This document shows positions 6,370 through 21,061 of a DNA stretch of 21,103 nucleotides, in pieces. Each line of letters begins with the position of its first letter. The stretch's first letter is position 1. The notes below the pieces were generated by a model. That model had not been told where the DNA came from and made no database searches. It was given only the letters and a program-made list of their open reading frames with translations. Origin of the DNA: a virus; the IMG/VR virus record IMGVR_UViG_3300005747_000293, positions 1 to 21,103 of that record. One strand, written 5' to 3'. Position numbers and translations under genes: made by a program.

Positions 6370-7127
6370 GTTTTATAGATACACTAGGCGGAATAGTAAA
6401 AGGTGTAGGTGGATTTCTTAGAAGTAATTCACTAGGAAGTAACCTTGCTAAATCAGCACTTTATGGCTTTGCATTAAACAGAGTGTTAAAAAGTATACAA
6501 AAGAAACAAGATGCAAACCAACCCAAGGATCAAGGTACACAAGTAAGTATCAATCCAGATCCAAAGAATTCAGTACCAGTTGTTTATGGAGATGCCTTTA
6601 CAAGCGGTATTATTACAGACGCACATATGGCAGGCAACAACACAACACTGTGGACTTGTTTGACTCTAAGTGAAAACACAGGCAATTTGATTGACGGTAC
6701 ACCAAGTGCAATTACATTCAAAGAAGTATACTACAACGGTTTTAGATTAGATTTTAAGGCAGATGGTGTTACAGTAGACAAGGCATACGATGACAGCGGT
6801 AATTCAACAGATAAATTTAGTGGACTAATTCAAGTGTACCCTTTTGTAGGAGGTAGCACAGGTGCTGTAAGTTTCTATACTGAAAGCACAGGCAACACAA
6901 GCAATGCTTATGACGTTATGCCAAGCTGGTCATCTACAGATGGTATGGACAATCTTGTGTTTGCAATAGTAAAAATTAATTATAATGCTAAAAACAGAGT
7001 AACACAGGTAGGCGACTTTAAATTTAGATTATCAAACACAATGAGTAAACCTGGAGATGTACTATTTGATTATATGACCAACACTCGTTATGGTGCAGGA
7101 ATACCACAAGCGGAGATTAATGTATAA
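6366..7127 (+). CDS. Tail tip hub (J-like), first part
   Basis: 253 residues with the N-terminal features of J-like central hub proteins: an N-terminal amphipathic segment ([19 protein letters not shown]), [54 protein letters not shown] and the diagnostic [17 protein letters not shown]. In the usual single-chain hub, sequence continues straight on from this point into a short linker and the next hub domain. Here a TAA ends the chain and an ATG overlaps it (TAATG), with the next codons continuing the hub-like sequence. This chain alone should be an incomplete hub that must assemble with the following two products. Confidence 0.7.
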
Positions 7128-8845
7128 TGCAAAGTTTAACAGACCTTAACACTAGAGCCGCACAAACTGTAACATTTACTGAAAACAGAGGTACAAATGT
7201 TATCTTTGATAGAGCAGCTGGTAAAACTTATAGTTTTACAGAAACTACGTTAAGTTTTAATTTACTAGTTGGTGCTAACATTACAGAAATTATTAACCCT
7301 ACACTTGCTAATGTACGGTACAAAATTAACATAGGTACAACACAAGTTTCTTTAAATTTTGGTACATTACCAAGTGGTGTAACAGTAAGTCAAACTGGTA
7401 CAATTTATACAGTATTTGGTATTGACAGTATTAGTGATTGGGAAGCTGTCAAACAACCTACAGTAACAATTGACGCGGCATTTGCTGGCACGTTTAGTTA
7501 CGATGCCTCAATAGTGTATAACACAGATACTACAGCAGACAATGAATTTCAATGGAACGTAGGAATTTATGCTCCAGATGCTCTATTAGAGAGCCAATTT
7601 GCTATTACTGGTAATGGTACATCTATAAGAAATTCAGGCGCTACATTAGTAGCTTTAACTTCTATAGAGGCTACTCCAACACCGCCAATTGAAATTTCGC
7701 CAGCATCGCTGTCAAGTGCATTCTCAATTACAGCAACTGGTATACTAGTTACATTTGGTAGTGCAAACATATCAGCATCTAGTACATTAAGTGCATCAGG
7801 TGATAGGTTAAGAATTTCTGGTAGTTCAATGTCAGTTAACACTAGTATTAGTGCTATAGCATCACAAGTACATCAAGGAACTAGTAATTTAACTTCTTCA
7901 GCTTCTATAACTTGTTCTTTAGAACAATCAGGAATGGTGTTTACACAAACTGGTGTTAGTAACGGCGGAACTTTCTATTATAAAGGCGACGGTACATCAA
8001 ACACATTTGACGTAACTTGGACAGATTTAAATACTGGAACATCTGAAACAAGAAGTGTTTCAACTATTTCAACCAGCTATGAGCCAGCTTCGCCTGCAAC
8101 ATTGTCAGCTTCTAACATTGAAATTAGTATAGAAAATACTCCTCGTATGTTAGGATTTAGACACAATATAGATTTAGACACAGGTACGGCAGATAATTTA
8201 CAATCAATAAAAACATTTGGACATTATATTGAAGAATTTGAAATTAGTGGTACTACTAATTTTACAGTTCCAACAAATATTCCTACAAGTGTTACAAGTT
8301 TGCGTAGAGCTTTTACTAATTGTAGTGCGTTTAATGATTCTGCCTTACAAAATTGGAGCACAGGCAATGTTACTAGAATGGATGAAATGTTTTTAAGTAC
8401 ATCTTTTAACCAAGATATTGACAGTTGGAATACAAGCAATGTTACTAGAATGGATGGTATGTTTAAAAACAACGAATCGTTCAATCAATACATAGGAAGT
8501 TGGGATACAAGCAGTGTAACAACTATGAAAGAAATGTTTAGATGTAGTACAGCAGCTGGCGGTCTTTTTAACCAAGATATTGACAGTTGGGATACAAGCA
8601 GTGTAACAGATATGTATGCAATGTTCTTAAATCAAAATGATTTTAATCAGGATATAAGCAGTTGGGATACAAGTTTAGTTACAGATATGGAACTTATGTT
8701 TGGAACAGTAGGAACTGGTAGTTTTGACCAAAATATTAGTAGTTGGTGTGTTGAATTAATTTCAACAAAACCAGCAAATTTTGACACCAATCAACCTGTA
8801 ACTTGGACAACAGCTGAAAAACCAAATTGGGGTGTAACTTGTTAG
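7127..8845 (+). CDS. Tail tip hub, middle part with large adhesive insert (Ig-like and BspA-type repeats)
   Basis: 572 residues. The first 20 ([20 protein letters not shown]) read like continuation of the J-like hub left off by the previous gene. Then come beta-sandwich-like sequence (about 20-190), four 20-residue repeats (about 192-269), another beta-rich part (about 270-390) and six BspA-type repeats (about 392-540) of the form MF-FNQDI-W-TS-VT-M. The protein ends with a Cys and tandem stops TAG TAA. BspA-type repeats are known in bacterial surface proteins that bind host matrix, so a receptor-binding role is likely. Start overlaps the previous stop; CGGAG lies upstream. It is placed in the loop that in relatives joins two hub strands. 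Confidence 0.6.
7700..7933 (+). repeat. Four copies of a 20-residue beta repeat in the hub insert
   Basis: Units of 20, 20, 19 and 19 residues with alternating hydrophobic positions and the core L-x-S-A-F, for example [20 protein letters not shown]. The core matches the repeats of the 921-residue fibre at 13429 (for example GSADLDSAFTISADADVLKD), so the two proteins share one repeat family. Confidence 0.65.
8300..8749 (+). repeat. Six BspA-type (DUF285) repeats of about 25 residues
   Basis: The units run from [19 protein letters not shown] to [10 protein letters not shown]. The conserved frame is MF, then F-N-Q-D-I, then W-(D/N)-T-S-x-V-T-x-M. Copies 2 and 4 share the hexa-codon stretch for FNQDIDSW, which also shows as near-identical DNA. 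The family forms leucine-rich-repeat-like solenoids on cell surfaces. Confidence 0.85.
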
Positions 8846-17067: not shown

Positions 17068-17222
17068 GTAACAGCTAGGACATACTTGTTTATTGCCATT
17101 TACAACTCCTGTTGCTTGCTGTTACAAGTTTAAAAACCGCTGTCAACTCTTCCTATAGATGTTATTGGTTTTTTGATGCCCGTTCCTAGGCTTTGCGAAG
17201 TCAGTAGACGGGCATTTTTTTT
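17068..17222 (+). ncRNA. Candidate small RNA with 5' hairpin and intrinsic terminator
   Basis: The 237 bases between genes at 17059 and 17296 hold no credible ORF on a real ribosome site. From the predicted start of the 17056 box, GTAACAGC (17068-17075) pairs perfectly with GCTGTTAC (17118-17125). Outside it, ACTTGT at 17062 can also pair with ACAAGT at 17124. A terminator hairpin closes the unit at 17175-17222, giving about 155 bases. The middle (17126-17174) is pyrimidine-rich. This would be an untranslated RNA; its existence is inferred from geometry only. Confidence 0.35.
17175..17222 (+). terminator. Intrinsic terminator
   Basis: ATGCCCGT (17176-17183) pairs with ACGGGCAT (17208-17215), followed by a run of eight T. 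The 24-base loop contains a smaller CTTTGCGAAG hairpin. It ends just before a sigma70-type promoter. Confidence 0.8.
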
Positions 17223-17224
17223 GG

Positions 17225-17253
17225 TTGACACATCGTTTTTATGGTGTTATTAT
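17225..17253 (+). promoter_or_regulatory. Sigma70-type promoter TTGACA-17-TATTAT
   Basis: TTGACA (17225-17230), 17-base spacer, TATTAT (17248-17253). It lies immediately after a terminator and upstream of the small zinc-finger gene at 17296. It should be used by the host polymerase, hence early. Confidence 0.75.
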
Positions 17254-17466: not shown

Positions 17467-18229
17467 AAAAATTTGTCAAAATGGCGTAGAGTATTATAAC
17501 AAAGAAGAACAAAGAAATAACAAAGAAGAACACATTACGACGACTACGTCTTTTGTCTCTCTTGGCAGGACTTCGTCCTCTGATGCTTCGCATCTCTCCA
17601 AAGATACATTACTTGCTCAAGGCTCTCCTGAGCCAAGAGAAAGAGAAGTGGTTATGGAAGGCGAGGAGGCACCCCTAGGCAACCACAACGTCAAACGTGC
17701 GATTATCCAATTGTTTAACAATGACTCAGGCACACGCAAACTCAAAATAAGATTGAACCTAGACGATGATACCAATGCTGAGTTTATTGCCCCACTTCAA
17801 CCAAGAAGCAATTTAACCAACTTCCTACGCTACACAGCAGACGCAAAAGAAGAAGCAAGACAAGTGTTTGTTGGATTGAGAAAGCACATCAAAAACACAC
17901 TAGGAGTTACTCCACAACAGGGCAAGTTCCACGAACGTGTTGGTGCAAGAACTGGTAGCAAACAAACAATACAAGTAGAGCCTGGATGTTATGGTGCAAT
18001 TGGTTGGTGTGCAGAAGACAAGCAATATCAGTGTTGGATTGTGTTGTATGGACTTGAACTATTGGCAATACCTCTCAGTGATGAACACCTAACAGCCGCA
18101 CAAAAACGTTCAAATGTAAGAGGTCAATATCTTTGGATCAATCCTAAGTTTGACACGAGAGTGCGTCCTAAAACGTGGGCACAAAAACGTCTTGAAAAGT
18201 TTGACAAAGTTTTTAAGGAGAAACAATGA
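17456..18229 (+). CDS. Unknown phage protein (257 aa) with in-frame hairpin-rich insert
   Basis: Start chosen at 17456, which has a near-perfect AAGGAGGT 5 bases upstream; an earlier in-frame ATG at 17336 lies inside the previous gene and lacks one. Residues 1-25 hold a seven-residue duplication (YNKEEQR/NNKEEHI). Residues about 28-62 are Ser/Glu-rich low-complexity sequence encoded by a cluster of hairpins. From about 75 on the protein is well formed (AIIQLFNNDSGTRKLKIRLN, NFLRYTADAKEEARQVFVGL, WCAEDKQYQCWIVLYGLELL) and ends basic (WAQKRLEKFDKVFKEKQ). A downstream in-frame ATG at 17654 could start a 191-residue form without the insert. No family is recognised; the C-terminal domain could bind nucleic acid. 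Confidence 0.65.
   Translation: MQTKKICQNGVEYYNKEEQRNNKEEHITTTTSFVSLGRTSSSDASHLSKDTLLAQGSPEPREREVVMEGEEAPLGNHNVKRAIIQLFNNDSGTRKLKIRLNLDDDTNAEFIAPLQPRSNLTNFLRYTADAKEEARQVFVGLRKHIKNTLGVTPQQGKFHERVGARTGSKQTIQVEPGCYGAIGWCAEDKQYQCWIVLYGLELLAIPLSDEHLTAAQKRSNVRGQYLWINPKFDTRVRPKTWAQKRLEKFDKVFKEKQ
17496..17532 (+). repeat. 16-base direct repeat, in frame
   Basis: ATAACAAAGAAGAACA occurs at 17496-17511 and again at 17517-17532. The 21-base period keeps the frame and duplicates seven residues. It lies directly before the hairpin-rich segment. Confidence 0.8.
17539..17640 (+). other. Cluster of tight hairpins inside a coding region
   Basis: Stems, all exact: GACG/CGTC (17539-17550), AGGAC-TTC-GTCCT (17567-17579), GATGC-TTC-GCATC (17582-17594), GGCTC-TCCT-GAGCC (17621-17634). 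A 9-bp enclosing stem TCTCTTGGC (17558-17566) pairs with GCCAAGAGA (17632-17640), whose first 3 bases are shared with the GGCTC hairpin, so the two are mutually exclusive. GC content is visibly above the flanks. The encoded residues are low-complexity, as expected of an in-frame palindromic insert. Confidence 0.6.
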
Positions 18230-18477: not shown

Positions 18478-18915
18478 ATGGAAGACAAACACAAACCTGG
18501 ACCAAAGCCCAAAGAACTAGTAGAAGGAAACATACTAGGATTATGTGTGGGCAGAGACAAAAAAGTGGTCCCACCAGATCAAGTACAGGAACTAGCCGCA
18601 CTAGGATGTTCAAACACGGACATTGCCAACTTCTACGGCGTTACTGAACAGACCATACGCTACAACTTTAGCGAATATATTACAAAAGGCAAAGAAGAAT
18701 TAAAGATCACACTAAGACGTTCAATGTTGAAGAATGCTACAAACAATATGAATGCGGCGGTGCAGATATTTCTAGCCAAAAACATACTAGGTATGACTTC
18801 AGAACCTATGAGCTCAGAATCAAACGCTCCTTTACCTTGGAATGAAAGTGATGAGCTAGATGTAGACATTGAAGAATATACAGAAGAGGAAACAACAGAT
18901 GAAGAGAATCAATAA
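18478..18915 (+). CDS. Helix-turn-helix protein, terminase-small-subunit-like
   Basis: 145 residues. Basic N-terminus (KHKPGPKPKE), a clear helix-turn-helix at about 38-64 (LGCSNTDIANFYGVTEQTIRYNF), a basic helix (KITLRRSMLKNATNN), then AAVQIFLAKNILGM (94-106) and an acidic tail (DVDIEEYTEEETTDEE). HTH followed by an x-x-IFL-x-KN-x-LG segment is the pattern of many phage small terminases, which bind the packaging site and load the large subunit. A transcription regulator is the alternative. The gene is probably read from a leaderless message (late-type box ends 5 bases upstream, no ribosome site). A large terminase gene is not in the window. Confidence 0.6.
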   Translation: MEDKHKPGPKPKELVEGNILGLCVGRDKKVVPPDQVQELAALGCSNTDIANFYGVTEQTIRYNFSEYITKGKEELKITLRRSMLKNATNNMNAAVQIFLAKNILGMTSEPMSSESNAPLPWNESDELDVDIEEYTEEETTDEENQ

Positions 18916-20087: not shown

Positions 20088-20310
20088 AGACTTTGATCCT
20101 CTAGCTCAACTTGAAGAACAGTCACTATTGTTGAGCAAACTTATTAACGCACACAACCGCCACGACTCAATCATAAGCGACCTAGCTGAACAACACAAGA
20201 GCACTATAAACTTAATTAGAACAGACAGAGACAAGATCGTACATCTTGAAAACAAAGTAAAAGTAATGAGTAAAATGTTAGGAGAGCTGTATGCAGATAG
20301 AAGCGATTAA
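20077..20310 (+). CDS. Coiled-coil protein of unknown function
   Basis: 77 residues overlapping the previous gene by 11 bases. Two ATG codons in a row (20077, 20080) are possible starts. The sequence is a continuous helix with Leu/Ile heptads (LAQLEEQSLLLSKLINAHNR, KIVHLENKVKVMSKMLGELY) and no Pro or Gly until the end, so a dimeric coiled coil is likely. It ends 20 bases inside the methyltransferase gene, whose ribosome site (AGGAG) it contains. No family recognised. Confidence 0.6.
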   Translation: MMSKDFDPLAQLEEQSLLLSKLINAHNRHDSIISDLAEQHKSTINLIRTDRDKIVHLENKVKVMSKMLGELYADRSD

Positions 20311-21061
20311 AAGCAAAGACAGCCACACCTATTGGATTGAGTCAGGCGACACTATGTATGAAGGTAGACTAATACACGGACATTATCAATCAACCAACTG
20401 GGACTTTGCACAAACGCTGATTGGTAGTTGGAGACGTTGCATAGACATTGGATCAAACAATGCTGTAAACGCAATACACTATGCCAAACGTTTTGCAACA
20501 GTAGAATGTTTTGAACCAACCCCTCTAGCACAACAGTTGTGGACAAGAACAATCAAAGACAATGGTGTAAAAAATTGTACACTACACGCACAAGCACTAG
20601 GCGAAACACCTAGAACAACTGACATTATAATACATCCAAAGAATGGAGGACACAATCACATACAACACTTTGACAAGAATCCAAGAGCAAGAGGTACAAC
20701 CAAAGCAACTGTAACAGTTGATGTACGCACACTTGACTCATACCAATTCACACAAGTTGACTTTGTTAAAATAGATGTTGAAGGGTATGAACTGTTTGTA
20801 CTTCAAGGAGGATTACAAACTATACTACACAATAGACCTGTGCTACAATTAGAAATAGTTGACAAGCAATGTCGCAAGTTTGACTATGCTCGCAAAGACA
20901 TTGCGGACTTGTTTGACACACTAAATTACAAATGCTGTTCAAAGAAGAACGGTTGGATTGACTTACGACAACACAAGGAAGGACGAGGCGAAATGGACTT
21001 GTTCTTTGTGCCACAAGAAAACATCAAGACTTTACCACCACATTTGGCACTTTTTAGTTAA
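20291..21061 (+). CDS. FkbM-family SAM-dependent methyltransferase
   Basis: 256 residues. Residues 50-75 carry the SAM-binding motif (CIDIGSNNAVNAIHYAKRF, then VECFEPTPLA, where FEP is typical of FkbM). Around 155-168 is VDFVKIDVEGYELFVLQGG, the family signature KIDVEG-x-E, followed by PVLQLEIV. FkbM enzymes methylate hydroxyl groups, often on sugars. In phages they are auxiliary genes with untested targets (host glycans, virion or nucleotide modification). AGGAG lies 8 bases before the ATG. The gene ends an operon of four overlapping genes from the 19240 promoter. Confidence 0.85.
   Translation: MQIEAIKSKDSHTYWIESGDTMYEGRLIHGHYQSTNWDFAQTLIGSWRRCIDIGSNNAVNAIHYAKRFATVECFEPTPLAQQLWTRTIKDNGVKNCTLHAQALGETPRTTDIIIHPKNGGHNHIQHFDKNPRARGTTKATVTVDVRTLDSYQFTQVDFVKIDVEGYELFVLQGGLQTILHNRPVLQLEIVDKQCRKFDYARKDIADLFDTLNYKCCSKKNGWIDLRQHKEGRGEMDLFFVPQENIKTLPPHLALFS

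Follow-up and report, generated by a model that had tools for sequence, protein, structure and literature searches.

The locus described here raises the question of whether a short, hairpin-rich stretch inside a phage gene serves only as protein code or also carries a signal in the nucleic acid itself. The window analysed is a whole virus record of 21,103 bases, to which all coordinates refer; it is a 21.1 kb fragment of a tailed phage, with capsid and tail genes, small genes, and then a small-terminase-like gene. The stretch lies in the gene P0001 (17456..18229, + strand), which encodes 257 residues, starts with an ATG preceded by the Shine-Dalgarno-like AAGGAGG, and keeps its reading frame open across the whole stretch. 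Downstream of P0001 is the small-terminase-like HTH gene (TerS; 18478-18915, + strand; phrog_309, E 4e-08). Upstream of the operon of the element is a near-consensus sigma-70 promoter, TTGACA-17-TATTAT (17225..17253, + strand, 11/12 matches), situated in a region where the total of promoter-like matches is not above shuffles. Directly before this promoter, the inverted repeat ATGCCCGT / ACGGGCAT, followed by a T run, occupies 17176-17223; it resembles a boundary at which one transcription unit ends and the next begins, and its loop is long and the terminator scan did not list it. Elsewhere in the window, an auxiliary gene for an FkbM-type methyltransferase is located at 20291-21061 (Pfam E 1e-13, PHROG 3e-26), and the tail-region ORF 7127-8845 contains tandem FNQDI..WDTS.VT.M repeats (8100-8700), which we take to be of the DUF285/BspA-like kind.

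P0001 has no match in Pfam or PHROG at E 0.1, nor in a protein search of annotated phages. The AlphaFold model of the full-length protein is poor (pLDDT 40.6), with low confidence over residues 1-78, and the core domain is modelled well (pLDDT 79.9); conservation of the domain begins at approximately residue 70. The N-terminal part containing the element is probably unstructured, and its poor predicted model is in line with a tolerant tail able to carry a signal. Among viral structures, the best fold match is an uncharacterised phage protein (E 5e-06). In the PDB, the best is GID4 (E 0.03), and since its Z of 5.3 is at a level rated common by the tool, no function is named from the fold. PrgE was set aside as a fold relative, with an E of only 0.94.

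The constrained unit spans about 175 bp (approximately 17483-17660), with an AT-rich tract carrying AACA repeats first and the hairpins after it, all on the + strand. The tract (17483..17538) is also purine-rich, and its AACA repeats are located at 17498, 17508, 17519 and 17529, with a spacing of 10, 11 and 10. A weak hairpin, GACG-ACTA-CGTC or GAC-TAC-GTC, is located at 17539..17550, and GAC-TCC-GTC occupies the same place in the L001 group of related contigs. The 5' arm of an enclosing stem, TCTCTTGGC (17558..17566), is a 9-mer that occurs again in L042/L105, L107, L022, L094, L052 and L053. It is followed by two hairpins with the same loop: AGGAC-TTC-GTCCT (17567..17579), identical in L002, and GATGC-TTC-GCATC (17582..17594). 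On the minus strand, they read AGGAC-GAA-GTCCT, with a C-GNA-G triloop, and GATGC-GAA-GCATC. Further downstream, TCAAGG-CTC-TCCTGA (17617..17631) corresponds to the TCAAGA-NNN-TCTTGA hairpin present in L042 and the L001 group; across six sequences, 94.4% of the cells in this helix are paired, and the window and L002 each have an A.C mismatch. The hairpin GGCTC-TCCT-GAGCC (17621..17634), not retained in L002, has GCC (17632-17634) in common with the 3' arm of the enclosing stem, GCCAAGAGA (17632..17640), which pairs with TCTCTTGGC; hence, the two structures are mutually exclusive. In addition, copies of CTCTTGRC are present in both orientations. Translational control had been suggested for an internal ATG at 17654..17656; it is not supported, as this ATG is not conserved in L042 or L061/L107, and the upstream start has its AAGGAGG.

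An earlier note, made from the letters of the window, had described these stems, including the two with the C(TTC)G loop. They are present and non-random, and although the stems do lie within the claimed 17539-17640, the constraint extends on both sides of it. The RNA MFE of 17539-17640 is -30.0 (z -2.5), with 0/200 shuffles as good; 13/500 synonymous recodings of a 108-nt stretch fold as well, and each strand of 17536-17645, folded as DNA, has a z of about -3.9. In the whole 21.1 kb, the + strand has no C(TNC)G triloops with stems of 4 or more besides these two C(TTC)G hairpins, compared with a shuffle mean of 0.38, and it contains no C(GNA)G triloop hairpins of the same class. The best fold with the enclosing stem (-26.3) is less than 1 kcal/mol from the MFE (-27.3), with an ensemble probability of 0.41. 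No Rfam match reaches the gathering score in the window or in L094, L052, L022, L105 and L107. An overlapping gene in another frame was rejected, since no frame except the coding one stays open across the six sequences that were compared.

Seven viral loci were matched by a protein search with the P0001 core, one further contig was reached via a DNA pattern and via a profile, and a small-terminase search added the homologues L042 (51% identical), L061/L107 (40%) and the truncated L092 (34%). The truncated L006, L007 and L092 stop short of the N-terminal region and were left out of the element comparison, which therefore includes eight contigs covering the region (L001, L002, L003, L004, L005, L010/L014, L042 and L061/L107); the divergent lineages known for the gene number only about four. 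In all eight, the frame is open through the element and no empty site exists, so the element is not an insertion of the window; the aligned P0001 set contains one 15-nt in-frame length difference. Copies elsewhere, for which the earlier note had suggested a search, did not appear: the window contains one, and a pattern scan of viral contigs returned 13 stretches, of which 7 belong to this gene family and 6 are chance matches with no stem of more than 2 pairs at CTTCG. No host or prophage copies were found in genome contigs by protein, nor was the L022/L094 leader found there by pattern. A distant blastn against annotated phages yielded one 36-base match (E 0.07) for the element and none for the L094 leader. 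No description of this element was found in the literature searched, which does not prove that there is none. In L061/L107, the P0001 homologue, the element and their own promoter run opposite to the small terminase gene, and from this arrangement it appears that the module can flip as a unit. Several contigs end inside P0001, at residues ~107-200 (the ends of G001, in L017 and L018, as well as L006, L007 and L002), and these could be assembly breaks or physical ends.

The substitutions separating the window from L001 are distributed almost evenly over the three codon positions in 17483-17658 (9, 10 and 8 in 54 codons), compared with 53, 33 and 82 in the 183 codons downstream; the signal over the protein code is visible because the three positions evolve alike. 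At conserved residues, 2/34 codons are altered in the element versus 56/127 downstream (p 1.3e-05). The same direction, with p below 0.001, is found in 9/10 of the sequence pairs tested, which are not independent of one another; the exception is the closest pair, the window and L002 (45/4 vs 107/17, p 0.44). In the hairpin part, the window and L001 differ with a pS of 3/23 and a pN of 18/64, so that pN is twice pS, compared with a pS of 0.63 and a pN of 0.21 in the rest. The AT-rich tract is the part best conserved in nucleotides, differing from L002 at 0/57 aligned sites and from L001 at 4/57. Its AACA spacing of 10/11/10 is repeated in 7/8 sequences, with a near-same 9/11/10/10 in L107. As an independent signal, this phasing is weakened by the peptide-only control, in which a chain of 4 arises in 1236/5000 recodings of the window and a chain of 5 in 210/5000 of L107.

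The small hairpins along this stretch are thus maintained while the residues change, and selection, as determined computationally, maintains the nucleotides and the C(TNC)G hairpins rather than the amino acids. The functional nucleic-acid structure that had been proposed inside a protein gene is supported by both the conservation and the folding tests. The N-terminal coding part of P0001 very probably contains a cis-acting nucleic-acid element selected at the nucleotide level, and the stretch, more than mere protein code, probably conceals a control or start site. It provides a clear phage case of a nucleic-acid signal overlaid on protein code. The element is real and conserved, without a match in the libraries searched (Rfam, Pfam and PHROG), and any function given to it is inferred.

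The hairpins of the C(TNC)G type comprise two C(TTC)G in the window, one C(TTC)G and one C(TAC)G in L002, and AGGC-TTC-GCCT in the L001 group. The hairpin at 17582-17594 corresponds to GAGGC-TAC-GCCTC in L002, GAGGC-TTC-GCCTC in L042/L105 and GAGAC-TTC-GTCTC in L107. In the alignment of four sequences, 20/20 of its cells are paired and 2/5 pairs are changed on both sides; with the partner slid, 35-65% are paired, and 32/500 pair shuffles reach the score. Among 10,000 synonymous recodings, the C(TNC)G hairpins reappear 0 times for the window, 0 for L002, 6 for L001, 4 for L003, 2 for L042 and 1 for L107. Of the 14 C(TTC)G stems of 4 or more found on both strands of 884 kb, 10 belong to this element and 2 more to the L094 cluster.

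The enclosing stem behaves differently. Together with its neighbour helix, it has 92% of cells paired versus 31-49% when slid, and 155/500 pair shuffles score as high. A helix as long occurs in 0 per 1000 shuffles of the window, 5 of L042 and 13 of L001, compared with 147 of L022, 498 of L094, 616 of L002 and 730 of L107. Two near-equal folds exist in the window and L003, and the two-fold switch of the earlier note is possible in the window. As a conserved switch, however, the stem is not supported, being no better than shuffles in L002, L107, L022 and L094, and its conservation is modestly supported. The whole-region RNA z is +0.26 in L003 (114/200 shuffles as good), -1.0 in L001, -1.4 in L002 and -1.5 in L107, and stronger in L105 (-2.0), the window (-2.3), L022 (-2.6) and L094 (-3.6, 0/200 shuffles as good).

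Similar clusters are situated outside the gene. L022 contains AGGAC-TCC-GTCCT and TCTCTTGGC within a separate upstream ORF, in another frame. L094 contains TCTCTTGGC and two C(TTC)G hairpins ahead of the ATG of the next gene, with a frame open back to position 162. In L052, L053 and L055, AT-rich repeats (AGAACT), TCTCTTGGC, GAC-TTC-GTC and CAAGAGA lie directly before the terminase gene, in intergenic DNA where no long frame was seen. L022 and L094 were picked by hairpins and L052/L053 by the 9-mer; those motifs are therefore not independent evidence, and the weight lies on place, strand and combination. The 9-mer occurs at 13 distinct places in 884 kb, 9 of them within these clusters. In 70 of 80 TerS loci, no P0001 homologue was detected. 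Among these, 22/70 carry some C(TNC)G stem on one strand or the other, a stem near a TCTCTTGG-type motif is found only in L022 and L094, and motif and hairpins occur only in L022, L094 and the L052/L053/L055 group. In L022 (1620-1666) and L094 (78-140), a common AAAACCGCGAA leader is followed by AT-rich 8-base repeats (AGTATATT-like), which occupy the place of the 10-11-base AACA repeats of the window. The downstream proteins of L022 and L094 were considered as P0001 relatives and rejected; they are collinear, and the likeness is not significant (E 0.27, probability 0.2%). L092 (1-591) and L094 (1-1258) have quite different genes before the terminase, yet the contigs are 97% identical downstream, and the region is perhaps an exchange hotspot for small genes.

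Among the mechanisms considered, an origin-like initiation site working at the DNA level is the most likely, though we favour it tentatively. The AT-rich repeat tract would melt and expose single strand, on which the mini-hairpins would form, and proteins of the host replication or transcription machinery would load there; the CTCTTGRC copies, in both orientations, may resemble protein sites. Such a reading is suggested because only the local hairpins are robust, with the closing pair and the outer loop bases fixed, and because the AT-rich tract is conserved best. Every C(TNC)G hairpin reads C-GNA-G on the minus strand, the loop and closing pair that let small DNA hairpins extrude under natural supercoiling, and this is counted for DNA. 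According to PMC4496689, hairpin extrusion at N4 promoters needs a loop with G and A as its outer bases, closed by a C-G pair, with the remaining stem bases free if paired, and PMC4686876 describes GNA mini-hairpins as extraordinarily stable.

In G001, a related contig of 27.3 kb, the two ends almost join within the P0001 gene. A comparison of 26 of its proteins with PHROGs, a few ORFs being left out, revealed terminase, portal, scaffold, capsid and tail families and one HNH, and no replication family. The nearest annotated relatives by the large terminase are phage DSL-LC06 (46%), whose annotation names no replication gene, and Pelagibacter phages. Without recognised replication genes, such phages would need host replication proteins, and it is plausible that the melting tract and mini-hairpins are an entry site for them. 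Against an action as DNA, all lineages have the element in the sense direction of the gene that follows it, some helix pairs are G-U, the GC skew shows no clear turn, with nearly all genes on one strand, and the DNA z is weaker than that of the window in L094 (-0.3, -0.7) and on the minus strand of L022 (-2.0). More speculatively, small phages without recognisable replication genes may start DNA synthesis, or first transcription, at AT-rich repeats with C-GNA-G mini-hairpins, and such sites could be intergenic, belong to a leader, or be concealed in frame within a protein gene. If the element works as DNA, it would suggest how very small phages without replication genes recruit host machinery, and that extruded hairpins are used outside N4-like phages; if it works as RNA, it is an undescribed structured leader.

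In our judgement, DNA is only slightly ahead of RNA, which is a possible but less probable alternative. A structured RNA leader or 5'-coding element, with the A-rich tract open and the hairpins folding after transcription from the upstream promoter, would act on translation, decay or the polymerase, as HK022 put RNA or an autoregulatory site might, possibly through two competing folds. The sense orientation is consistent with this, being maintained also in L061, in which gene and terminase point in opposite directions, as are the near-consensus promoters upstream in the window, L022, L107 and L042, the strong folding of the L094 leader and the near-equal folds of the window and L003. The sole promoter-like match of L052, however, points away, the folding of L003 and L001 is hardly distinguished from shuffles, the enclosing stem is no better than them in four sequences, and translating ribosomes would be expected to unfold the structure in the window. 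The UNC triloop is not known to be unusually stable in RNA, which also counts against this reading. According to PMC9378689, the put RNAs are ~70 nt long with two stem-loops, putR being located ~270 nt downstream of its start.

A packaging site (cos or pac), at which the small terminase would attach to the repeats and to CTCTTGRC in its inverted copies, next to its own gene, is doubtful. The TerS gene is near, at 0.8 kb in the window and about 90 bp in L052, and CTCTTGRC is found in both orientations; but the loci were selected by TerS, so that ascertainment accounts for part of this nearness, L061 has the module in reverse, and motif and hairpins occur in few of the 70/80 loci without a detected P0001 homologue, though their TerS are 56-69% identical. 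Somewhat less probable still is a recent exchange of a block between lineages, combined with a loosely constrained linker, where hairpins arise by chance or from repeat-rich coding and have no nucleic-acid function. Exchange would likewise give low synonymous divergence, the peptide accounts for part of the AACA spacing, and the enclosing stem does not reach significance in the pair-shuffle control; yet exchange should also lower non-synonymous change, and pN is not lowered. Moreover, the hairpins are rebuilt through double changes, unexpected from the protein, and non-coding relatives exist. A mobile palindromic element read in frame, like the RPEs that the earlier note had considered by analogy, is very improbable: the element is about 100 bp, palindromic and in frame, but the eight covering contigs contain no empty site or clean insertion, the window has a single copy, and none was found in other genes.

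Compared with known systems, the element shares different features with each. The lambda ori lies in gene O, a replication origin inside the initiator gene, and like the element it is a repeated AT-rich tract in a flexible part of a phage protein gene; P0001, however, has no detectable relation to initiators, and its repeats of 10-11 bp are not lambda iterons. The HK022 put RNA, according to PMC9378689, similarly has hairpins downstream of a strong promoter, at a distance of a few hundred bases, but the element is translated in the window, is without sequence relation to put, and is likened to it by position alone. Rickettsia palindromic elements, according to PMC10969869, are palindromic, ~100-150 bp long and read in frame, whereas here empty sites and multiple copies are absent and the nucleotides are conserved rather than the peptide. 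In the case of the N4 virion RNA polymerase promoters, the AT-rich repeats and the enclosing stem of the element are not part of the promoter, the phage is of another type, and no virion RNA polymerase is named in an incomplete PHROG scan of the proteins of the window and G001, the genome being fragmentary. However, the C-GNA-G triloop hairpin that an N4-type promoter requires is found in the element on the minus strand, and the likeness, according to PMC4496689, extends to the small size of the hairpins, their 3-nt loops, the reading C-GNA-G on one strand, and stem bases that are free as long as they pair.
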